Of a stretch of 64,000 nt of DNA, positions 3,344 through 61,968 are shown one piece after another. The DNA is taken from contig SACH01000005.1 in NCBI GenBank assembly GCA_009928645.1, positions 1-64,000 on the forward strand, read 5' to 3'. The notes under the pieces were generated by a model that did no database searches, was not told where the DNA came from, and saw nothing but the letters and a program-made list of their open reading frames with translations. Source of the DNA: Gammaproteobacteria bacterium (GTDB taxonomy: Bacteria > Pseudomonadota > Gammaproteobacteria > Chromatiales > Chromatiaceae). A program made the position numbers and the translations under genes. Every line of letters begins with the position of its first letter. Position 1 is the first letter of the stretch.

Positions 3344-5028
3344 GGGATCTGCCTCATAGCGTTAATTTCGGTGAAGCCATCCCGGACGACACCACCCCGC
3401 GCTGTTACGGCATTACGGTCTCCAAACCACACACGCCTGCACGAGGCCGGGACCCGTCCGAGCAATGCATCCAGAACGAGCATGGTCGCCAACGCGATGG
3501 TTGGTTGGAGGTCAACCGCGCCATGAGGCTGGAATACGTTACTACAACCGGCTTCCACGATAACCTCGCCGGCGCCGTATGGCCAATCGGTCAATCGGAA
3601 ACTCGGTAGATTGGCTTCAAAGGCCGACATCAGATCATCCTTGCCATAGAGCAGCACAGCATGTCCGACGATGGCGTAGGCCTCGACCCAAGTACTGAGA
3701 TAAGCAGGTGGACGGTCCAGGGTCTGGCGCCAGGCGTTCACGGCGGCCTCGCCTTCGATGTCGATACCCGCGGTCACGATCATGTCCACGGCGACGAGCT
3801 TCCCCAGTTCGGGCGCGGATAAACGCTCGAAGTTCTTAGGGTGGATCGCGCCGATCTTCAGATGAGGTAGTCGGCGCTGTAGCTCAGTCGCCACGCCCTT
3901 GGCCTTATTCCAACCCAGATAATTGAGACCCAGCAGGTGACGACCCGCGTTGGCGGACAAGAAGTTGTCGCCATCAATAAGCGTCAACTCACCGACGCCC
4001 GCCTTGGCCAGTAACTCGGCGATCTCGCACCCTAAGGCGCCGCAGCCCACAATTGCAACCCTGCGGGCTCGCAGGGCGGCTTGTTCAGGTGAATGATCAC
4101 GACCGTGAATCCAAGAAGGATCGACGCGGCTAGCCACGACACGTTCGACGCGCTGTTGTGCCATGGCATGCTTAATGCGGTCCAGGGGAACCCGCGCCCA
4201 ACTGCGAAACCCATTCTTAATCTTGGAGTTCTTGGCGCCAATGGCCAGTGCCGCAGCGAAGACCGTACCCGTGGATGTTTCGACCTCGAAGATGAACAGG
4301 GACTTGCGATCCGGCAGCAAGATCGCGCGTAACGCGTCCTCGGGTATGCCGTGGATAATATCCCCGACGGTCTGGGGAAAATGGCTGGGCGGCCATGGGC
4401 GTGGCAGCCGCAGAAGAAACGAAGGCAGGATGTTATAGTCACGGGTAGGGGTGCCAAAGTTCCTCAGCCAGTCCTTGACCTCCGCCTTAGTGTCGGCAAC
4501 TACAACCTGCCCCACCTTCACGTCCAAGTGGAAGGCCAGCACACGCGACTTACCGCCCGGCGGCACAAGGCAAACCAGCCGTAGGTTCTGGCCTGGCGTG
4601 ATGGCTTGATACGCCCAATACGAGGCAAACTCGCGCTCGAACTCCGCCACACACTTATCGTCTGACCAGTTGAGGAGTTCCAGAGCGTCATCGAGGTGAG
4701 CGCGAACTCGATCGCCCGCAGGGGCGACGATAGACGTGGGCTGCAAACACAAGAGCCCCTTGGGCTCGACATGGGGCCAGCAATAGTTGCTGCCCAGGTC
4801 GGGCGCCAGCACCCGGGGCTGGGAATACGGGAACACCGCGTCGATGACAAGCTGGAAGTGGCCCACGCCCGGTGGACGAACAGCCCTCTCGGCAAGCTCA
4901 ATGCGCCAACCATTGCGGAACAGCGGCAGAGGATCAGAAAGCATCTCCTCGACGGTGAGCCGTCGCCAGTGACCTGGACACCACTGGTCCAGTTCAGCTT
5001 CGACGGCAGTGATGACTTCTGCGGTCAC
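3337..5028 (-). CDS. cap2: Cap2: E2-E1 fusion conjugation enzyme of type II CBASS
   Basis: This 563-aa protein joins an E2-like N-terminal domain (candidate catalytic Cys94 in 'GLLCLQPTS') to a C-terminal ThiF/E1 adenylation domain with the nucleotide-binding loop 'VAIVGCGALGCE' (~325-335) and 'TLIDGDNFLSANAGRH'. A candidate E1 cysteine is Cys495 in 'VEAGCSNVF'. Family knowledge: Cap2 activates the CD-NTase C-terminus and conjugates it to cellular targets, which primes second-messenger synthesis. The start is GTG, 3 nt after the CD-NTase stop. The CD-NTase ends in glycine, as expected for a Cap2 substrate. It overlaps cap3 downstream by 7 nt. Confidence 0.93.
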   Translation of the reverse strand: MTAEVITAVEAELDQWCPGHWRRLTVEEMLSDPLPLFRNGWRIELAERAVRPPGVGHFQLVIDAVFPYSQPRVLAPDLGSNYCWPHVEPKGLLCLQPTSIVAPAGDRVRAHLDDALELLNWSDDKCVAEFEREFASYWAYQAITPGQNLRLVCLVPPGGKSRVLAFHLDVKVGQVVVADTKAEVKDWLRNFGTPTRDYNILPSFLLRLPRPWPPSHFPQTVGDIIHGIPEDALRAILLPDRKSLFIFEVETSTGTVFAAALAIGAKNSKIKNGFRSWARVPLDRIKHAMAQQRVERVVASRVDPSWIHGRDHSPEQAALRARRVAIVGCGALGCEIAELLAKAGVGELTLIDGDNFLSANAGRHLLGLNYLGWNKAKGVATELQRRLPHLKIGAIHPKNFERLSAPELGKLVAVDMIVTAGIDIEGEAAVNAWRQTLDRPPAYLSTWVEAYAIVGHAVLLYGKDDLMSAFEANLPSFRLTDWPYGAGEVIVEAGCSNVFQPHGAVDLQPTIALATMLVLDALLGRVPASCRRVWFGDRNAVTARGGVVRDGFTEINAMRQIPW

Positions 5029-5031
5029 CGT

Positions 5032-6102
5032 TCAGCCAAAGCGCCCACCGCCGTCCACGCGGCGCGCGGTCTCAACCGATGTGACGCTCATTGCGATACC
5101 TGAATCAGAAGCCTTGTTAGCGGTACCGGGATCCGGCTGGTTGGAGAAGAAGCAGGTATCGAATACGCTATCCCAGGCCTTGCAAGCCATCACGCGGGTG
5201 CAATCTTCGCGGTCGAGTACCTCGAGGGTGTCCAGTGCCTCCTTCAAGCAGTCTCGGAAGTACGTGACCTCGGCATCGCCTTGCTCCGCCAGGTTCTTCG
5301 CGACAATGGGATGGGCAACTTGAGTTGAGCAGCTCAGGGCCAGGTGGATTTGCTGCCATGTCTGGCGAAGCGCCTTGTCTTCACGATCCGCGTTAGCCAC
5401 GAAATGGTCGACGATGAGCTTGGTGATTGTGATGCCGCTGGTAGTGTAAGCCTTCCATTCCGCACGCCGGGCAAACTTCTTAGTGAGCTTGGTGATGCGC
5501 CGCATCTGGCTGCCGTCGGCCTGGCCGGATTTGAGCTCGTCAGCCTGGCCGGAGTTGAGTTTGCTCACCTGGTCGTTGAACCACTTCGTGACGGCCCGTG
5601 CATCCGAGATAACCCACGAGTCACCGCTGGCCAACTCGTATCTATCGACGATGTCGCCCGACAAGTCCCTCTCCGTCACTATGCGGTAGACTGGCACATC
5701 AATGTGATAGCCCACAGCGTAAGGCTGGCGCACACAGTTATTCTTGACCTCGGCTTCACTTTTGAATCGGCCGTCCCACTTCAAGGCATCGCAGACACGC
5801 TGCCGGGCCGCCAGAGGGGTTAACTCTAAACCATCGTCGTCCTTTAGGTCCTCGAACCGAAAATAGGCACCGTCATCGATGTCATAGTCCTTGTCAGGGT
5901 CCTGCACCATAGTTCGCATCTGGTACGAGCCCTGAGAGCGCACCTCGCGCGGTTGCGGCTTGCCTGCGGTGTCGAGGCCTTTGCGCAGACGATCCCTGCC
6001 GCTATCCCTTGCAGCGCGCATTTCCTTTTGCTGTTCCAGTGCTAGAGTGACCTTGTCACGGTGATATCCGCTCATATCGGCATGGCAATTGATGTCAGTC
6101 AT
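5032..6102 (-). CDS. CBASS cyclic-dinucleotide synthase (DncV-like CD-NTase)
   Basis: From the ATG at 6102 (356 aa) the protein carries the CD-NTase core: 'QGSYQMRT' (~57-64), the metal-binding 'DYDIDDGAYF' (Asp74, Asp76) and the third acid in 'YHIDVPVYR' (Asp135). The region 'WVISDARAVTKWFND' closely resembles DncV, so a cGAMP-type product is likely but not proven. The track start at 6156 is too long: the 6102 ATG has an AAGGAAG site and overlaps the end of capV by 8 nt. The protein ends 'GGGRFG'. A terminal glycine is what Cap2 needs for conjugation. A short internal 'SGQADELKSGQAD' repeat may be a loop expansion. Confidence 0.9.
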   Translation of the reverse strand: MTDINCHADMSGYHRDKVTLALEQQKEMRAARDSGRDRLRKGLDTAGKPQPREVRSQGSYQMRTMVQDPDKDYDIDDGAYFRFEDLKDDDGLELTPLAARQRVCDALKWDGRFKSEAEVKNNCVRQPYAVGYHIDVPVYRIVTERDLSGDIVDRYELASGDSWVISDARAVTKWFNDQVSKLNSGQADELKSGQADGSQMRRITKLTKKFARRAEWKAYTTSGITITKLIVDHFVANADREDKALRQTWQQIHLALSCSTQVAHPIVAKNLAEQGDAEVTYFRDCLKEALDTLEVLDREDCTRVMACKAWDSVFDTCFFSNQPDPGTANKASDSGIAMSVTSVETARRVDGGGRFG

Positions 6103-24702: not shown

Positions 24703-26547
24703 TCAGTCCACCTCCTGTCCCACCGGCTGGCCACCGACGGACTTGGCCATGCGCTTGGCGAAGTAGTAGATGCGCTTGAGCTTTTCCATGATGTCCATTT
24801 CGATGGTGTAAGCCGGGATGCGCTTGGGTTCCGCGGCCACCAGACGGCGGGCCTGGTGGAGGGCGGCGGAGTCGGCGATGCGGTTGATCTCCTGCTTCAT
24901 GTCCATGACGGTCTGTGCCGCCAGGACGTTCTTTTGCGCGACTGCCTGCACCGCGCCCCCCACGGACTTGGTCACCGCCCGGTGGAACCCGTTGAGCACC
25001 TCCCGGGTCGGCTGACTGATGGACAGCCCCTGGTCGATGCGTTCGTTGCCCAGGACTACCAGGTTAGTCTCGATGACATCGCCAATATTCTCCAGGTCGT
25101 TGACCGCGCTCATCAGGCGGATGAGGTCGGCGGTCTGGGCCTCGGTGAGGGTCAGGCGGCTGATCTTGCCCAGGTAGTCGATGATCTGGGCGTGGAGGCT
25201 GTCCACGGCATCGTCCATGGCCTTGACCTCCGCCAGGCTGTCGCGGTTGCCGGCGATGATGGCGGGCAGGATGCGCGCTAGCATCTCCTGGACCCGGTCA
25301 CCCATGCGCAGCGCCTCCATCCGCACCCGGTCCAGGGCCAGGGCCGGGGTAGCCAGCAGCTCCTCATCCAGGTAGCGGGCCCGCCCCACCCGTTCTTCCT
25401 CCTCTGGGCGCTCCGGCACCAGCCAGATCACCAGCCGCGCGAACTGCCGCGTGAAGCCGATGAAGAGCAGGGTGTTGGCGATGTTGAACAGGCTGTGGGC
25501 GTTGGCGATCTGACGCGGGGCCTCGGCGGCCAGGCGCTCGACCCCGGTCAGTTCGGGATGGGCGGGCGAGAGCCAGGCCACGCATTGGGCCAGGGGCCCG
25601 ATCAGCTCGAACCAGATCAGCACCCCAGCCACGTTGAAGATGAGATGCACCAGGGCGGCGCGCACCGCCTCCCGGGGCTTGCCGATGCAGGCCAAGAGGG
25701 CGGTGACGCAGGTGCCGATATTGGCCCCCAGGGCCAGGGCGATGCCCGCCGGCAGATTGATCAGCCCCTGGCCAGCCAGGACGATAACGATCCCGGTGGT
25801 GGCGGCGGAGGACTGGATGAGGGCGGTAAAGACTAGTCCCACCAGGATGCCGATGGCCGGCTGCTCCAGACCGCGCATCAGATCGAGGAAGGGGGGATAG
25901 CCGCGCAAGGGGGCCATGGCCTCGCTCATGACGCTCATGCCGAAGAAGATGAGCCCGATACCCAGGGTGGCGGCGCCGTAATGGTGCCAGGGCTCCTTCC
26001 GGGTGAGGAACATCGGCAGGAAACCAACCGCAATCAGCAACAGGGCCAGTTCATTGACCTGAAAGGCGATGATCTGCGCGGTGAGGGTGGAGCCGATATT
26101 GGCGCCCATGATGACCCCGATAGACTGGGTCAGGGTCATGAAGCCGGCGGTGATGAAGCCCACCACCAGGACCGTGGTCACCGAGGAGGACTGGATCACC
26201 GCCGTGACCAGGGCGCCGGTCACCACCCCCAGCCAGCGGTTGGCGGTCAGGCGGGCGAGGATGTCCTTCATGCGCTCGCCAGCGACGGCCTTGAGGGCGT
26301 CCGACATCTGGTCCATGCCGAACAGGAAGAGGGCCAGTCCCCCGAGCAGGCCCAGGATCATGGCCTCCCAATCGATGGTCGCGACCGGTGGTGTCGTGAC
26401 CGTTGCCGGTTCGGCCCATGCCAGCCCCGTGGCGATACTCAGGAGAGTGGCCAGCAACCACCGAGCTAGCGGCCTTACCCTGGCCGACCCATGCCAGCAC
26501 GGCGTCGCGGGGAAGAAAGGGGACCCCGAGGGAAAGGGCTTGATCAT
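24703..26547 (-). CDS. Na/Pi cotransporter family protein (NptA/YjbB-like) with PhoU-like tail
   Basis: This ~614-aa membrane protein has the inverted-repeat Na/Pi signature twice: 'VTAVIQSSSVTTVLVVGF' (first half) and 'FTALIQSSAATTGIVIVL' (second half), each next to 'GANIGST/GANIGTC'. After ~10 membrane helices a soluble helical tail from about residue 400 ('LARILPAIIAGNRDSLAEVKAMDDAVDSLHAQI') matches PhoU-like domains. The track start is TTG; the ATG at 26547 ('MIKPFPSG') is preferred. It should import phosphate with sodium. It is divergent from a second cotransporter of the same family at 26776. Confidence 0.9.
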   Translation of the reverse strand: MIKPFPSGSPFFPATPCWHGSARVRPLARWLLATLLSIATGLAWAEPATVTTPPVATIDWEAMILGLLGGLALFLFGMDQMSDALKAVAGERMKDILARLTANRWLGVVTGALVTAVIQSSSVTTVLVVGFITAGFMTLTQSIGVIMGANIGSTLTAQIIAFQVNELALLLIAVGFLPMFLTRKEPWHHYGAATLGIGLIFFGMSVMSEAMAPLRGYPPFLDLMRGLEQPAIGILVGLVFTALIQSSAATTGIVIVLAGQGLINLPAGIALALGANIGTCVTALLACIGKPREAVRAALVHLIFNVAGVLIWFELIGPLAQCVAWLSPAHPELTGVERLAAEAPRQIANAHSLFNIANTLLFIGFTRQFARLVIWLVPERPEEEERVGRARYLDEELLATPALALDRVRMEALRMGDRVQEMLARILPAIIAGNRDSLAEVKAMDDAVDSLHAQIIDYLGKISRLTLTEAQTADLIRLMSAVNDLENIGDVIETNLVVLGNERIDQGLSISQPTREVLNGFHRAVTKSVGGAVQAVAQKNVLAAQTVMDMKQEINRIADSAALHQARRLVAAEPKRIPAYTIEMDIMEKLKRIYYFAKRMAKSVGGQPVGQEVD

Positions 26548-29258: not shown

Positions 29259-30302
29259 ATGGAATTACTTTCCATCCTTGTCTACGTTGCCGTTGCGGTG
29301 GTCCTCATCTTCGATTACACCAACGGCTTTCACGACGCCTCCAATATCATCGCTACCCCCATCGCCTCCCGGGCCCTGACGCCCGTCCAGGCGGTGGCCA
29401 TCGTCGCCACCTTCGAATTCCTTGGCCCCCTGCTGGGCGGTACCGCGGTGGCCAACACCATCGGCAAATTCGTCGACCTGGAGGGTGTCAGGGATATCTT
29501 TTCGGTCACGATCATCCTCTGCGGACTCTCCGGGGCCATCTTCTGGAACCTGATCACCTGGTGGTTTGGCATCCCCTCCTCCTCCTCCCATGCCCTGGTC
29601 GGTGGTCTCGCCGGCGCGGTCATGGTTGGGGTGGGCGTAGACCATGTGGTCTGGGGCTTCACCGAGCTTTTTACCCAGGGCAAATTCACTGGCGTCACCA
29701 AGGTCCTGCTGGCACTGATCATTTCTCCGGTGGTCGGCTTCGTGGCGGGCTACCTCATCCACCGCACCGTCTTCCGCCTGACCTGCCGTGCTAAGCCTTC
29801 CATTAACAAGTTCTTCAAGCGCATCCAGTTCCTGTCCTGCGCTGGCCTGGCCTTCTCCCACGGCGCCAATGACGCCCAGAAGAGTATGGGCATCATCACC
29901 CTGGTATTGCTCACCGGCGGCTTCATCGACGAGTTCAAGGTGCCCTTCTGGGTAATCCTGTCCTGCGCCATCGCCATCACCCTGGGCATCCTCTCCGGCG
30001 GCTGGCGCATTGTCCGCACCATCGGGTTTGGCATCTTCAAGGTGCGCCCCATCCATGCCTTTGATGGCCAGCTCACCTCGGCCGCGGTCATCATGACCGC
30101 TTCCGCCATCGGCGCCCCGGTCTCCACCACCCACGTCGTCAGCTCCGCCCTCATGGGCATCGGCGCCGCCGAGCGGCCCAAGGCCGTCCGCTGGGCCAAG
30201 GCCCAAGAGATCGTCACCACCTGGATCATCACCATCCCCGGCGCCGGCGTCGTCTCCGTGTTCACCTACCTGGTGCTCGATCTGCTGGTCCCGGGACTCT
30301 GA
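29259..30302 (+). CDS. PiT-family inorganic phosphate transporter (copy 1)
   Basis: This 347-aa permease has about 9-10 helices and both PiT repeats: 'FDYTNGFHDASNIIATPIASRALTPVQA' and 'LAFSHGANDAQKSMGIITLVL', with 'GIPSSSSHALVGGLAGAV' and 'GAPVSTTHVVSSALMGIG'. PiT proteins move metal-phosphate or phosphate with H+ or Na+ at low affinity. GGGGGGAA precedes the ATG. The DUF47 gene follows after 60 bp, so the two form a pair. It is very close in sequence to copies 2 and 3. Substrate could be another oxyanion (some PiT relatives carry sulfate). Confidence 0.92.
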   Translation: MELLSILVYVAVAVVLIFDYTNGFHDASNIIATPIASRALTPVQAVAIVATFEFLGPLLGGTAVANTIGKFVDLEGVRDIFSVTIILCGLSGAIFWNLITWWFGIPSSSSHALVGGLAGAVMVGVGVDHVVWGFTELFTQGKFTGVTKVLLALIISPVVGFVAGYLIHRTVFRLTCRAKPSINKFFKRIQFLSCAGLAFSHGANDAQKSMGIITLVLLTGGFIDEFKVPFWVILSCAIAITLGILSGGWRIVRTIGFGIFKVRPIHAFDGQLTSAAVIMTASAIGAPVSTTHVVSSALMGIGAAERPKAVRWAKAQEIVTTWIITIPGAGVVSVFTYLVLDLLVPGL

Positions 30303-54253: not shown

Positions 54254-54913
54254 TCAGAGGGAGCGCTTGATGGAATAGATGGCGAGCCAGTCACCCACCT
54301 CTTCCGCCTCGTCGGCGAGGCCGTCGATGCGGTCGACGAAGTAACGCAGATGCATTTTCTGGTCGAGACTCAGGGCGGAGGAAAAGATGGCGCGCTTGAG
54401 GGTGATGGCGACCTGGTCGCACTCATCCTCATGGAAATAGACCTTGGCCAGGTGATCCCGCACCGCGGTGATGTTGCGGAAGAAGGCGCGACTGCCGAGG
54501 ATGGCGGCCTCGATGGCTTTCACTACCGAACTGGCCAGGAGTTTGAAATCCGCCCGATAGGGTTCGTCGATGATCGGCTGCTCAACAGTGATGGCCAGGA
54601 AGATATCCTCCAGCTTGCCGAGGACATAGTTCAGGTCCTCCAGCAGGCTCAGCACGTCGCCCCGGAAATCCGGGATCAGCATCTCGGTGTAGAGTTGCGT
54701 CTCGATGCTGCGCCGCAGCCGATGGCCTTCCCCCTCCGTCACGCGCAGTTGCTCCGCCCGCTCGGCCAGGCGCTCGGGCGTCGATTGGTCTATATAGGCG
54801 GCGATCCCCTGCTCGAAGCGCAACCCACCCTCCGATACCTTATCCAGGAAATCGTCGATCAGGGTCTCCATGGCCTTGGTCTTGCCGAAGAGGGCGAGTT
54901 TGGGTTCTTTCAT
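54254..54913 (-). CDS. DUF47 (PhoU-like) accessory protein (copy d)
   Basis: This 219-aa protein starts 'MKEPKLALFGKTKAMETLIDDFLDKVSEGGLRFEQGIAAYIDQ' and contains 'VTEGEGHRLRRSIETQLYTEMLIPDFRGDVLSLLEDLNYVLGKLEDIFLAI'. It is a divergent DUF47 branch that pairs with PiT copy 4, which starts 68 bp downstream. The ATG at 54913 is preferred to the upstream track start. Helical throughout, no signal peptide. Confidence 0.88.
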   Translation of the reverse strand: MKEPKLALFGKTKAMETLIDDFLDKVSEGGLRFEQGIAAYIDQSTPERLAERAEQLRVTEGEGHRLRRSIETQLYTEMLIPDFRGDVLSLLEDLNYVLGKLEDIFLAITVEQPIIDEPYRADFKLLASSVVKAIEAAILGSRAFFRNITAVRDHLAKVYFHEDECDQVAITLKRAIFSSALSLDQKMHLRYFVDRIDGLADEAEEVGDWLAIYSIKRSL

Positions 54914-56374: not shown

Positions 56375-57139
56375 CTAACAGGGGATCACAATTTTCTGAT
56401 AGAGCCCACGAAAGAAGGTGGACTTGCGCAGCTTGGCCAGGTGTGGGCCTGGGGGCAGAAATTCCTCGACCTCATGCCGCCACAGGTCAAGGGCAAAGGG
56501 TTCCAGGGCAGCCAAGACCGCCCGCATGGGCAGGCGCAGGAAATGGCCGTCGTCCGGGCGATGATAGTCGATGATTACCAGTTTGCCGCCGGGCCGGGTC
56601 ACGCGCAGGGCCTCGGCCAGGGTGGCGCGCCGGACCTCCTCGGGTTGCTCATGCAACAGGAAAAACAGCAGGGTACGATCAAAGGTGCCGTCAGCAAAGC
56701 GCAAGGCGCTAGCATCCTGCTGATGCGGATGCCAGCGCGCATCAGGACGCAACTTCCGTTGGAGGTTATCCAGTTGGATCGGTGCCACGTCGATAACATC
56801 CAGCCGATCCTGAGTCCCCATCTGGCCCAGCAGTCGTTCGGTGAGATCCCCATAGACGCAGGCCACTTGGAGGAAGCGCCGCTCACCAGGCCCGGCTCCG
56901 CCCGCTGCTTGACCTTCCGCCTCGCCCTCGGTCAGTCCCCCGCTCTCCCCAAGCTCCGCCAGGGCGGCATCACACAGGGTCCGGTAATTGCCCCAGAGGA
57001 TCAGATTGACCAGCCAGTGGCGCTCGAAGACATGAACCGCCTTGGGGTGGAGGTAGGCCCACCAATACACCTTTTCCAGGTAGTCCGGGATGGGGGGGAC
57101 GGCGATCTCGCCACCGAGACCGGTGCTTATATGGGTCAT
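56375..57139 (-). CDS. rquA: rhodoquinone biosynthesis methyltransferase RquA
   Basis: This 254-aa protein starts 'MTHISTGLGGEIAVPPIPDYLEKVYWWAYLHPKAVHVFERHWLVNLILWGNYRTL', the characteristic RquA entrance region, followed by a SAM-methyltransferase-like core ('LQVACVYGDLTERLLGQMG', 'LDVIDVAPIQLDNLQRKL', 'FLLHEQPEEVRRATLAEALRVTRPGGKLVIIDYH'). RquA converts ubiquinone to rhodoquinone, the low-potential quinone for anaerobic fumarate respiration, by an unusual amination. The 'VYGD' in motif I in place of the usual acidic G-rich loop fits the specialised enzyme. It stands alone beside the hemerythrin gene, same strand. Confidence 0.9.
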   Translation of the reverse strand: MTHISTGLGGEIAVPPIPDYLEKVYWWAYLHPKAVHVFERHWLVNLILWGNYRTLCDAALAELGESGGLTEGEAEGQAAGGAGPGERRFLQVACVYGDLTERLLGQMGTQDRLDVIDVAPIQLDNLQRKLRPDARWHPHQQDASALRFADGTFDRTLLFFLLHEQPEEVRRATLAEALRVTRPGGKLVIIDYHRPDDGHFLRLPMRAVLAALEPFALDLWRHEVEEFLPPGPHLAKLRKSTFFRGLYQKIVIPC

Positions 57140-57594: not shown

Positions 57595-59055
57595 TCAGGC
57601 GGCAAAGTGGCGGTTGTAGAGGGCCATCAGGGGCTCGACGGGATAGCGCAGGGGCAGGAAGCGCTCGGCGGCGAGGGCGACGATGCCGATCCACTCCGGA
57701 TGGGCGCCAAAGACGACGTGATGGGCCTCGATGTTGCCGGCCTCGAGCCAGAGGGTATCGTCATTGGAGAGGGGGGTATGGCCGACCAGGAGGGGGACGT
57801 AAGGGCCGAGGCCCAGGGCCTTGCGCAGGCGCTTGATGTCGCCGCGGCCATATCCGGCGGGGGAGTTGGGTTTGCGCAGACGCACCCGGGTGACCTCCCG
57901 TTCCAGGCGCGGGTTGTCGCGGATGTCGATCAGCAGGGCGCGGGTCACGCTGGAGGTCGGTGGACCGGCGTGGCAGGCGACGAAGCGGGAGGAGGTGGCG
58001 ACGTAGGGCAGGCAATGGTAGAGCCGGGACATGGCCTCGAAATAGGCGGTACCCCGCTGATTGCGCAGGGCGTCCTCCCAGAGGACGCCCTGGGGGACGC
58101 CATTCTTACTGATCTCCTCGGAGAAGCTGTCGTGATTACCCCGCAGGTAGTAAACCTGACCGGGGAAGGCGAGCTGAAGACGAAAGATCAGGTCCATTAG
58201 CAGCAGGGAGGTACCCATATCGGCCTCCTCGCCCTCCTCGTCCGGGTGGGGGGCGTCACCGATGATGATCAGCGCCACCCGTCCCGCCTCCAGGCCATCG
58301 AGGACGGCGTTCTGGGTCAGGACCACCAACAGGTTATCAATCCGGGCATGAAGGTCGCCGACGAAGACCGGGTCCAGTTCCTCCGGCACCTCCACCAGGC
58401 CACCGGGGCGCCCTTGGCGATCCTTGGGCTGATGCGGATCGGCCGCGATCTGGGCAATGACCCCCTCGACCAGGGCCAGGGCCTCTTCGGGACTGGGTTC
58501 GGCGATGGGGGCCCCGAGCACCTGAGCCAGGTATTCCAGCTTGGCCAGGCGCAAGTCGGCGGAGGATTTCCAGCCCGCTTTGGGCGGCAAGGGCGAGAGG
58601 CAGCTCCCTTCCGTGGGGGCCAGGTTCTTCAGGGTCAGGCCGTCGGGCCCCAGCTTGATGCGCAGATGACGCTCCGCCACCGTTGGCGGATAGTCCATGA
58701 GGTCCCGCTGTTGAAGTTCCTCCCGCCCCAGCACCAGGGTATCCCCCGGCACCAGGCGCAGAAAGCCATGGAGCTGGCCAACGGTATATTCCGGGTCCTC
58801 GATCAGATAGGCCCCGCTCGGGACCATGCCCCCCTCCGCCGTCAGCATGGGCTCGGGGTACAGTTGCAGCCGTTTGCCCTGTTCACCACCCAACTGCATC
58901 TGGATGGGGGCCAGGGGGCAGGGGAAGCGCACCTTGGTCTCACCCAGGCTGATCGAGCCCGCGATCTCGATGTCCTCACAGGCCCCGTATTCGTCCACCA
59001 AGTCGCGGAAATGGCTAAAAAAACCCTTCGAGGACTTCTTGGTGGGAAAATTCAT
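57595..59055 (-). CDS. metallophosphatase with N-terminal FHA-like region
   Basis: This 486-aa protein has an N-terminal ~200 residues with FHA-like features ('GDTLVLGREELQQRDLMDYPPTVAERHLRIKLGPDGLTLKNLAPTEGS') and a C-terminal PPP-type calcineurin-like phosphoesterase: 'VFVGDLHARIDN', 'ALIIIGDAPHPDEEGE', 'YYLRGNHDSFSEE', 'RFVACHAGPP' and 'PLLVGHTPLSND'. The metal motif GDxxDRG is replaced by 'GDAPHP', so catalysis may be altered. It is the second gene of a two-gene unit after a P-loop protein. It may dephosphorylate Ser/Thr-phosphorylated proteins or a small molecule. Confidence 0.75.
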   Translation of the reverse strand: MNFPTKKSSKGFFSHFRDLVDEYGACEDIEIAGSISLGETKVRFPCPLAPIQMQLGGEQGKRLQLYPEPMLTAEGGMVPSGAYLIEDPEYTVGQLHGFLRLVPGDTLVLGREELQQRDLMDYPPTVAERHLRIKLGPDGLTLKNLAPTEGSCLSPLPPKAGWKSSADLRLAKLEYLAQVLGAPIAEPSPEEALALVEGVIAQIAADPHQPKDRQGRPGGLVEVPEELDPVFVGDLHARIDNLLVVLTQNAVLDGLEAGRVALIIIGDAPHPDEEGEEADMGTSLLLMDLIFRLQLAFPGQVYYLRGNHDSFSEEISKNGVPQGVLWEDALRNQRGTAYFEAMSRLYHCLPYVATSSRFVACHAGPPTSSVTRALLIDIRDNPRLEREVTRVRLRKPNSPAGYGRGDIKRLRKALGLGPYVPLLVGHTPLSNDDTLWLEAGNIEAHHVVFGAHPEWIGIVALAAERFLPLRYPVEPLMALYNRHFAA

Positions 59056-59057
59056 GT

Positions 59058-59741
59058 TCAGCCTCCAGTCGCTGCCAGTTCGATACGCCAGGGCGGTTCG
59101 TCGACGTTCTCGCGCACGTAAACCCCCATGCCGGAAACCTGAAAATGAGCCGCGACCTCGGCGAATACCTCCATTTGGCGGCGAATATGCGCCAGGTCAA
59201 GAAACGCATCCACCGGATGGGTACCCTCCCGGGCCCGGGCCAGACGGCGCTCCAGGACCAGTTCCGCCGGCGGCAGCAGAAACTCGAAGACGAAGCGCTT
59301 GGTCCAGTCAGTGTCCCAGAAGTGGCGCTTGGGGGGCGGCAGACGGATACGGCCCGGCTCCAGGCGCAAGTCATGGCAGCGCGACAACCACTCCGGCTCG
59401 AAGAGGGCCAGGCCCTCCTTCTCACCGACGAAGGGCAGGCCGAGCTGCACCTCACGGGGGCGCAGGGCCATGGCCTGGGACTTCCACCAGCCGGCGAAGC
59501 TGATATCGATGTAACCCTCCTCCGGCCAGCCCTTGATGCGCTTGATCAGGGTGGTCTTACCCGAGCCCGGGGGCCCGGTCACCACCAGTTGACCGAACCT
59601 GAGCTCCGGCGGAAAAAGCACCCCCTTGATCTCCTGGCAGTTCTCGATGGGCACCAGGGTCAGGCCGGCAGCGGTCTGTTTCATAACCCAGCAGGCCTCG
59701 TGGGGCTGGGACGCGAATCTCGGCGCAAAATAATCCCCCAT
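59058..59741 (-). CDS. P-loop NTP-binding protein coupled to the phosphatase gene
   Basis: This 227-aa protein has Walker A 'VTGPPGSGKTTLIKRIKGWPEEGYIDISF' (~55) and a later 'RHFWDTDWTKRFVFEFLLPPAELVLERRLARAREGTHPVDAFLDLAHIRRQMEVF' segment. It is shaped like small kinases or ATPases of the uridine/adenylate kinase-like type. The stop overlaps no gene but the phosphatase ATG follows after 2 nt, so the pair must be cotranslated. It could phosphorylate what its partner dephosphorylates. I do not recognise the exact family. The ATG at 59741 is used; ATG 59684 is an alternative. Confidence 0.65.
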   Translation of the reverse strand: MGDYFAPRFASQPHEACWVMKQTAAGLTLVPIENCQEIKGVLFPPELRFGQLVVTGPPGSGKTTLIKRIKGWPEEGYIDISFAGWWKSQAMALRPREVQLGLPFVGEKEGLALFEPEWLSRCHDLRLEPGRIRLPPPKRHFWDTDWTKRFVFEFLLPPAELVLERRLARAREGTHPVDAFLDLAHIRRQMEVFAEVAAHFQVSGMGVYVRENVDEPPWRIELAATGG

Positions 59742-59898: not shown

Positions 59899-61182
59899 CT
59901 AGGCGCCGAAGATCATCAGCAGGATGTAGTAGCAGATGGCGGCCAGGATGGCGCCCACCGGCAGGGTGATGAACCAGGACACCACGATGTTGCCCAGCAC
60001 CCGCAGGTCCAGGGCGCCGATGCCGCGCGCCAGGCCCACGCCCATGACCGCGCCCACGGCGATGTGGGTGGTGGACACGGGCATGCCCAGGCCGGAGGCC
60101 ACGACCACGGTGGCGGCCGCCGCCAGGGTGGCGCAGTAACCGCGGCTGGGGGTCAGCTCGGTGATCTTGGTGCCGATGGTCTGCATGACCTTGTAGCCAT
60201 AGGTGGCCAGACCGACGACGATGGCGAGGCCACCCGCGAGCAGCACCCACCAGGGCACCGGGGCCTTGGAGGCGAGCTCGCCGGAGTGGACCAGTTCCAG
60301 TACCGCCGCTATAGGGCCGATGCCATTGGCGACGTCATTGGAGCCGTGGGCGAAGGACATGGCCGCGGCGGTGAAGACCATCATGGGGATGAAGACCTTT
60401 TCCACGCTCGCGTAATGGAAGGACTTATCCGCCGTGTTGTCGACCTTGACCTTGTTGACCAGGATCTTGCCGATGATGGCGCAGATGATGCCGACGATGA
60501 TGGAGCCGATCTGGGTCTCCATGACGCTGAAGTCGAGCTTGAAGTTCTTCAGGCCCTTGGAGATGGTCACCACGGCGACGACGTAGCCCACCAGGAAGAC
60601 GTAGAAGGGGGCCCACTTCTTGGCGTTGCCGAAGGGATCGTCAGTCTCGAACACCAGCTTGCGGACGCTGAGCATCAGGATCAGGGCGATGATGCCGCCG
60701 GTAATGGGCGAAATGAACCAGCTCGCGACGATCTCGGCCAGACCACCCCACTTGACGGCGTGCATGCCGATGCCAGCGAGGCCGAAACCGACCAGGGCGC
60801 CAACGATGGTGTGGGTGGTGGAGACCGGCCAGCCGCGCCCGGAGGCGACCATGAGCCAGATGCCCGAGGCGAGCAGGGCGGCCAGCATGCCGTAGATGAG
60901 CAGTTGTGGCGTGGAGGCCAGAACCGAGGGGTCGATGATGCCGGACTTGATGGTACCGGCAACGGTGCCGCCCGCCAGGAAGGCGCCGGCGAACTCGAAG
61001 ATACCGGCGATGATGATCGCCTGCTTGACGGTGATAGCGCCGGAGCCCACGGAGGTACCCATGGCGTTGGAGACGTCGTTGGCACCGATGCCCCAGGTCA
61101 TGTACAAACCGAAGACAAAGGCGAGGATAATGAACCACATGCCGTATTCGGCAATGATCGGATTACCAGCAAAGATTTCCAT
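59899..61182 (-). CDS. PiT-family phosphate transporter (copy 5)
   Basis: This 427-aa permease is of the longer PiT type, with the signature pair 'TWGIGANDVSNAMGTSVGSGAITVKQA' and 'MSFAHGSNDVANGIGPIAAVLEL', plus 'GWPVSTTHTIVGALVGFGL' and 'GMPVSTTHIAVGAVMGVG'. It is a branch distinct from copies 1-4, so the set is not the result of recent duplication alone. DUF47 copy e lies just upstream and is transcribed first. It should be a Pi symporter. Confidence 0.94.
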   Translation of the reverse strand: MEIFAGNPIIAEYGMWFIILAFVFGLYMTWGIGANDVSNAMGTSVGSGAITVKQAIIIAGIFEFAGAFLAGGTVAGTIKSGIIDPSVLASTPQLLIYGMLAALLASGIWLMVASGRGWPVSTTHTIVGALVGFGLAGIGMHAVKWGGLAEIVASWFISPITGGIIALILMLSVRKLVFETDDPFGNAKKWAPFYVFLVGYVVAVVTISKGLKNFKLDFSVMETQIGSIIVGIICAIIGKILVNKVKVDNTADKSFHYASVEKVFIPMMVFTAAAMSFAHGSNDVANGIGPIAAVLELVHSGELASKAPVPWWVLLAGGLAIVVGLATYGYKVMQTIGTKITELTPSRGYCATLAAAATVVVASGLGMPVSTTHIAVGAVMGVGLARGIGALDLRVLGNIVVSWFITLPVGAILAAICYYILLMIFGA

Positions 61183-61287: not shown

Positions 61288-61968
61288 TCAGCGGGCGATG
61301 AGGAGACGCAGGCGATCGCCGACCTTTTCGGCATAATCGGCCAGGTCGCCGATCCACTGGATCAGTTCATACCAGAAGATCACCGCCACCGGCTTAAGAC
61401 TGTCTTCCTGGGCGAACAGGGCCTTGGACAGGGCCATGCCCAACTTGTCGGTGTCGTCCTCGATGAGATTCAGCTTCTCGATCATGCCCGCGACCGTCTC
61501 GGCCTCGCGGCCGCCGAAACCCGTCTCCACCAGCTCGTCCAGCTCCGCGATCACCACCCCGGCCTGATTCACGGCGTCGACGCACCGGGCGACCAGGGCG
61601 CGAAGGTCATCCGCCATGCCTGGGGGTACCTGCATGTCGCGCTCCACCAGCAGGCCGGCGATGTCCTGCGCGGTGTCGGCGATGGAGTCCTGCATGCCCA
61701 ACAGATCCAGCAGGTCGCGGCGATCGACCGGCATGAACATGCTCTTGGGCAGATGGGCCCGCAGGTCATTCTTGATGGCGTCCGCCTCGTGCTCCTTGGC
61801 GAAGATGACATCTTTCGACTTCTCGATGCCGGCCTGGTCGTTGGCGATCAGGGCCTCGAACAGCGCCGGGACTTCGGCGACGCACTCGGCAACCACCGCC
61901 ATGTGCTTCTGCACCGGCTTAAAGGGGGAATGCCCAAACAGGGAAGCAATAGGATTGGTACCTTTCAA
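61288..61968 (-). CDS. DUF47 (TIGR00153-type) accessory protein (copy e)
   Basis: This 226-aa helical protein starts 'MKGTNPIASLFGHSPFKPVQKHMAVVAECVAEVPALFEALIANDQ' and contains 'IFAKEHEADAIKNDLRAHLPKSMFMPVDRRDLLDLLGMQDSIADTAQDIAGLL', typical of the TIGR00153 branch of DUF47. It precedes PiT copy 5 by 105 bp in the same direction. It probably regulates that permease. Confidence 0.94.
   Translation of the reverse strand: MKGTNPIASLFGHSPFKPVQKHMAVVAECVAEVPALFEALIANDQAGIEKSKDVIFAKEHEADAIKNDLRAHLPKSMFMPVDRRDLLDLLGMQDSIADTAQDIAGLLVERDMQVPPGMADDLRALVARCVDAVNQAGVVIAELDELVETGFGGREAETVAGMIEKLNLIEDDTDKLGMALSKALFAQEDSLKPVAVIFWYELIQWIGDLADYAEKVGDRLRLLIAR

Follow-up and report, generated by a model that had tools for sequence, protein, structure and literature searches.

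A kinase-like P-loop protein and an FHA-like/PPP-fold phosphatase encoded with DUF47 and Pit: a candidate control module for phosphate flux in polyphosphate-storing proteobacteria

The four-gene unit and its surroundings

The window, a stretch of 64,000 nucleotides, comes from a genome of the Chromatiaceae (contig SACH01000005.1) and carries the genes for a small P-loop protein and for a phosphatase with an FHA-like N-terminus, both of which were confirmed as real open reading frames with a gap of 2 nt between them (Table 1). The earlier note had taken them for a two-gene operon; the reading frames and the spacing were as it described, but upstream, on the same strand, there are also genes for the Pit transporter and a DUF47 protein, which makes a unit of four genes and not of two. 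The P-loop and phosphatase genes are, as judged from the sequence, genes 3 and 4 of a predicted operon, DUF47-Pit-P-loop-phosphatase, reading from 61968 to 57595 on the minus strand. Scans of this region for a Pho box and a terminator gave matches at or below chance, and those for a consensus promoter and terminator were uninformative.

Table 1. Features of the predicted operon in the window
Feature	Position	Strand	Basis or remark
DUF47 / PhoU_div protein (PhoU-like partner of Pit)	61288..61968	-	gene 1; Pfam PF01865, E 2.4e-57; TIGR00153
Pit low-affinity phosphate transporter	59899..61182	-	gene 2; Pfam PF01384, E 8.7e-120
P-loop protein, kinase-like	59058..59741	-	gene 3; likely start 59684
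Walker A, GPPGSGKT	59553..59576	-	sequence; conserved in homologue alignment
FHA-like + PPP-fold phosphatase	57595..59055	-	gene 4; Pfam Metallophos; Foldseek
Divergent FHA-like domain, residues 33-155	58591..58959	-	hhalign; weak matches to Pfam FHA and Yop-YscD_cpl
PPP/calcineurin-like phosphatase domain, residues 222-475	57631..58392	-	Pfam, alignment, Foldseek
Altered second metal motif, GDAPHP	58243..58260	-	family consensus GDAVHxE

The surrounding DNA from 24703 to 61968 is a phosphate-transport island, including five Pit genes (at 29259, 48111, 51525, 52692 and 59899), DUF47/PhoU_div genes at 54254 and 61288 and Na/Pi cotransporter genes at 24703 and 26776, together with two further DUF47-like ORFs (47325 and 50745) recognised by eye. 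The source genome gave six Pit matches in total. Downstream of the phosphatase gene, after a gap, lies rquA (rhodoquinone biosynthesis methyltransferase; 56375-57139), which is not a conserved partner and adjoins the pair in the window and its nearest relatives alone.

Relatives and their gene neighbourhood

Relatives were sought in related genomes and GTDB contigs, giving a total of 183 tblastn-confirmed matches, of which 80 loci were kept. The hosts belong to Chromatiaceae, Sedimenticola/Ca. Thiodiazotropha, tubeworm symbionts, Ca. Accumulibacter, Dechloromonas and Magnetococcales, several of these lineages being known polyphosphate accumulators. The phosphatase ORF stays open in homologues at 37-93% identity, mostly with the P-loop gene adjacent, which is far beyond chance. 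In an even sample of Pseudomonadota, a phosphatase copy was found in 13 of 398 genomes, the window's own included. No match to the pair was detected among plasmids, phages and viral contigs, and nothing thus points to a mobile or phage gene. An anti-phage defence system was rejected as a candidate, the PADLOC models matching the phosphatase nowhere and the P-loop protein only by short matches in the P-loop region.

The gene-neighbourhood search for the pair was based on 56 representatives with less than 80% identity, 48 of which had at least 3.5 kb of upstream DNA. Among these 48 diverged loci, the P-loop gene is adjacent to or fused with the phosphatase gene in 34, a Pit gene lies upstream on the same strand in 33, and a DUF47 gene upstream of Pit in 30. 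The full order DUF47-Pit-P-loop-PPP, found in 27 of the 48 with gaps between the P-loop and PPP genes of -41 to +36 nt and one exception, is common to Chromatiaceae, Sedimenticola/Thiodiazotropha, the tubeworm symbionts and Ca. Accumulibacter. Other recurring neighbours are Na/Pi cotransporter (18/48), CHAD (4/48) and PPK2 (4/48) genes, and some phosphate or polyphosphate gene occurs in the flank of 41 loci; as to the 7 loci without a phosphate-related neighbour in the scan, L097 and L120 have another Pit nearby. Given the Pit background of about 100 matches in 92 genomes, or approximately one per 3-4 Mb genome, we estimate chance linkage to Pit at well under 1%. Since related genomes inherit gene order, the locus counts are not independent events, and the weight of the linkage rests on its persistence across deep divergence and on the separate Accumulibacter/Dechloromonas clade. 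The link of the pair with phosphate transport may be regarded as very probable. DUF47-Pit phosphate transport operons are known that have these two upstream genes in identical order; the present unit differs from them by the two added genes, absent from most Pit-bearing genomes.

The association of the two proteins goes as far as fusion, the P-loop and FHA-PPP parts forming one polypeptide of 690-753 aa in Accumulibacter (L121 and L126) and Dechloromonas (L122), where the carriers include Accumulibacter regalis and another Accumulibacter MAG. In a set of 92 related genomes, the P-loop protein (E <1e-20) was present in 18 of 23 relatives with the phosphatase and in none of 69 without it (Fisher test, 6e-15). 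The adjacency or fusion, the fused polypeptides and this co-occurrence support the conclusion that the two proteins work together. The proposal of the earlier note that the pair forms a private phospho-switch holds as far as the coupling is concerned, but the pair is not generic, being tied to Pit/DUF47 phosphate transport. Of 200 sampled genomes of the Accumulibacter family, 174 had some Pit and 7 the phosphatase; the operon-type Pit, recognised by a profile span of 1149 nt, was present, among the matches listed down to 315 bits, only in phosphatase-bearing genomes, namely in 5 of these 7. The many genomes with Pit but without the pair indicate that the pair is accessory.

Several variant loci were observed. 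A paralogue combining the P-loop with a GAF domain and a membrane helix adjoins pstA-pstB in one locus (L178:518-1885), lies between NptA and DUF47-Pit in another (L186:2457-3734) and near NptA in a third (L182:4694-6019), which suggests that the P-loop family as such goes with phosphate transport; this paralogue is possibly a sensor version of the family. In L180, the P-loop gene accompanies DUF47-Pit, the phosphatase copies are located elsewhere, and a kinase-like ATP-cone/P-loop protein (4065-5225) takes the place of the phosphatase. This ATP-cone/P-loop protein, which by eye resembles 2-phosphoglycerate kinase, recurs in L054 (6620-7897), L113, L078 and L086. In Thiodiazotropha (L099, L106 and L108), the gene for the polyphosphate kinase PPK2 lies directly upstream of DUF47-Pit-P-loop-PPP. 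Where Thiodiazotropha and a related clam symbiont have a second phosphatase copy (L096, L103, L107 and L111), it occurs with a CHAD protein, CHAD domains being described as polyphosphate-binding (PMC6537752). The same second-copy loci also hold another metallophosphoesterase and a 254-aa protein that is GHKL-like by eye.

The phosphatase and the P-loop protein

As quoted in the earlier note, the PPP-type motifs GDLHAR, GNHD, HAGPP and GHTP and the altered GDAPHP were all found in the phosphatase, and the Pfam Metallophos score of 30.9 bits exceeds the cut-off of 21.5. Structure prediction gave an AlphaFold model with a pLDDT of 89.5, for which the best Foldseek matches were PP2A, PP1 and PP5 (E about 1e-12, TM about 0.7 by target length), which confirms the PPP fold of the model. 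With the PPP phosphatases PP1, PP2A, PP5 and RdgC, the protein shares the fold (Foldseek E 6e-13), the order of metal motifs and the ligands GDxH/GD/GNH/H/H; it differs from them by a sequence identity of only 12-17%, by the N-terminal FHA-like domain and the operon with Pit, and by GDA(V/P)(H/Q) in place of GDxxDRG. The alteration of the second metal motif turned out to be a family-wide feature. The motif reads GDA(V/P/I)(H/Q) in 72 of 76 copies and GSAxH in the other 4, all from Thiocapsa; H or Q stands at the Asp position of GDxVDRG in 76/76 and P, S, C or N at the Arg position in 75/76, while DRG was found in 0/76. Alignment with RdgC likewise places the H and the P/S/C of the family at the D and R of GDxVDRG. 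This replacement in nearly all copies indicates that the Asp-Arg pair has been lost throughout the family.

The metal ligands are intact, D234 and H362 being kept in 76/76 copies and H236, D267, N307 and H426 in 72/76 each, and the full set of six is present in about 95% of the copies (n=76), which points to catalysis as the predicted function. In PP1, the phosphate of the substrate is held by the Arg of GDxVDRG, with the Asp assisting in catalysis; the metal centre of the present family thus looks intact and its substrate grip rebuilt. On the basis of the modelled fold, we consider the protein to be a relative of the PPP phosphatases and not a canonical member, with a putative phosphomonoesterase activity. 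The four Thiocapsa copies (L071, L079, L081 and L110), which form one clade, have lost some metal ligands and have no P-loop gene next to them any longer, remain full-length ORFs, and adjoin NptA in three cases; from their sequences they are probable pseudo-enzymes, and some members may act without catalysis. The persistence of such copies beside NptA would fit a non-catalytic role of the pair in assembly or gating, with an ATPase in the P-loop protein and a metal-dependent scaffold for Pit/NptA in the PPP protein, but the retention of every metal ligand in the great majority of copies makes this reading very improbable.

At the N-terminus, comparison of a profile of residues 33-162 with a locally built FHA profile by hhalign gave a probability of 85% (E 6e-6), whereas reversed, shuffled and unrelated controls gave E 0.02 or worse. 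The single-sequence Pfam FHA match of the window's protein is below the cut-off, and a PDB sequence search with the domain gave marginal matches, two of them to the FHA protein TB39.8 (E 1.6-1.7). Descent from FHA domains is well supported at the level of profiles. The residues of the phosphothreonine pocket (GR, SxxH, N) are conserved unevenly, Arg in 35/76, Ser in 8/76, His in 55/76 and Asn in 39/76, and the canonical phosphothreonine reading is unlikely as the binding Arg and Ser are not conserved. The earlier designation as an FHA-like, phosphothreonine-binding region is thus correct for its first half and doubtful for the second. Conventional Ser/Thr phospho-signalling, in which FHA would bind phosphothreonine and PPP dephosphorylate it, broadly the idea of the earlier note, agrees with the PPP fold and the FHA-like profile match, but we consider it unlikely in view of this pocket, the complete absence of DRG, and the absence of a Hanks-type kinase among the scanned genes adjoining the pair.

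The P-loop protein carries the Walker A motif GPPGxGK(S/T), with K62 invariant in 54 homologue rows, and the conservation in the family begins at about residue 20 of the ORF, suggesting that translation may in fact start from the ATG at 59684. Its AlphaFold model (pLDDT 90.7) gave weak Foldseek matches to NMP/shikimate-kinase-like folds (best E 6.6e-3, TM <0.37 by query length), which leaves a kinase or a plain NTPase. It shares with these kinases the Walker A followed by a conserved Asp and, as it appears, two conserved Arg residues in a helix that resembles a lid; it differs from them by the weakness of the fold matches and by motifs of its own, GGWxEEGYxDL..WW and RPREIHLG. The earlier label of a probable kinase is not supported as it stands; the Walker A is invariant, but with fold matches of this strength a kinase activity is suggested at most.

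The combination of P-loop kinase-like and calcineurin-like phosphatase domains, in some species fused in that order, is also that of bacterial Pnkp, a nucleic-acid end-healing enzyme; a TIGR04075 match was marginal and seen in one member only (E 0.15), and Pnkp1 ranked 31 among the P-loop fold matches. The present pair differs from Pnkp by the extra FHA-like domain and by a genomic context of phosphate transporters instead of any recurring ligase or Hen1 neighbour, and neither protein gave a significant sequence match to Pnkp. Pnkp-type repair was rejected on these grounds, and we give it hardly any weight.

Candidate control of phosphate flux

Two roles of the pair have to be weighed in connection with phosphate transport. 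If the two are phosphate-storage enzymes, polyphosphate or some phosphorylated small molecule would be hydrolysed by the PPP protein and made or recycled by the P-loop protein, and phosphate would be fed to or from Pit. Hydrolases of this type exist in the PPP superfamily, as exemplified by ApaH and yeast Ppn2; the Asp-Arg pair used by PP1-type enzymes on phosphoproteins is absent, the P-loop fold matches are small-molecule kinases, and PPK2 and CHAD genes accompany some of the loci. PPK2 and CHAD are, however, near a minority of the loci, and both the FHA-like domain and the close linkage to the transporter with its PhoU-like partner give the impression of a regulatory system. We take the storage role as the main rival, possible but less than likely.

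The alternative that we prefer, and hold at about even chances, is that the pair serves as a control module dedicated to the Pit of its own operon, setting low-affinity phosphate flux in polyphosphate-storing proteobacteria; linkage, fusion and co-occurrence are observed, and the PPP fold is a model prediction. In more general terms, the pair probably controls phosphate entry or exit in bacteria known to store polyphosphate and in their relatives. In the scheme proposed, for which we infer the catalytic activities of both proteins as well as their substrate and the direction in which control is exerted, the P-loop protein as a small ATP-dependent kinase-like enzyme would phosphorylate a target, and the FHA-like/PPP protein, tethered through its FHA-like domain, would act as the opposing phosphatase and reverse the modification. 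The target would most likely be the DUF47 subunit, Pit itself or a small phosphorylated signal read by the pair, and through this reversible modification the low-affinity uptake or efflux of phosphate would be adjusted to the state of ATP, phosphate or polyphosphate in the cell. An enzymatic switch of this kind might equally well prove right or wrong.

In Accumulibacter, Pit-driven Pi/H+ efflux has been reported as a main source of proton motive force (PMC12604563), and pit has been discussed as a feature that separates polyphosphate accumulators from non-accumulators or glycogen accumulators (PMC9041414, PMC12604563). In a literature search with subscription papers outside its reach, we found no publication on the P-loop/PPP pair and no paper linking Accumulibacter with a metallophosphoesterase. 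Pit flux is regarded as central to the polyphosphate-accumulating organisms of wastewater phosphorus removal. A small lineage-restricted pair that travels with one type of Pit, and occurs as a single fused protein in Dechloromonas and part of Accumulibacter, is a concrete and testable candidate for the control of this flux; it also offers a PPP-fold family whose active site is systematically altered. Tentatively, the pair may represent a new regulatory system of polyphosphate-storing proteobacteria, in which a kinase-like/PPP-like pair firmly tied to Pit and its PhoU-like partner would control phosphate influx and efflux and help to make a phosphate accumulator, as a bacterial counterpart in role to the SPX/inositol-pyrophosphate control.
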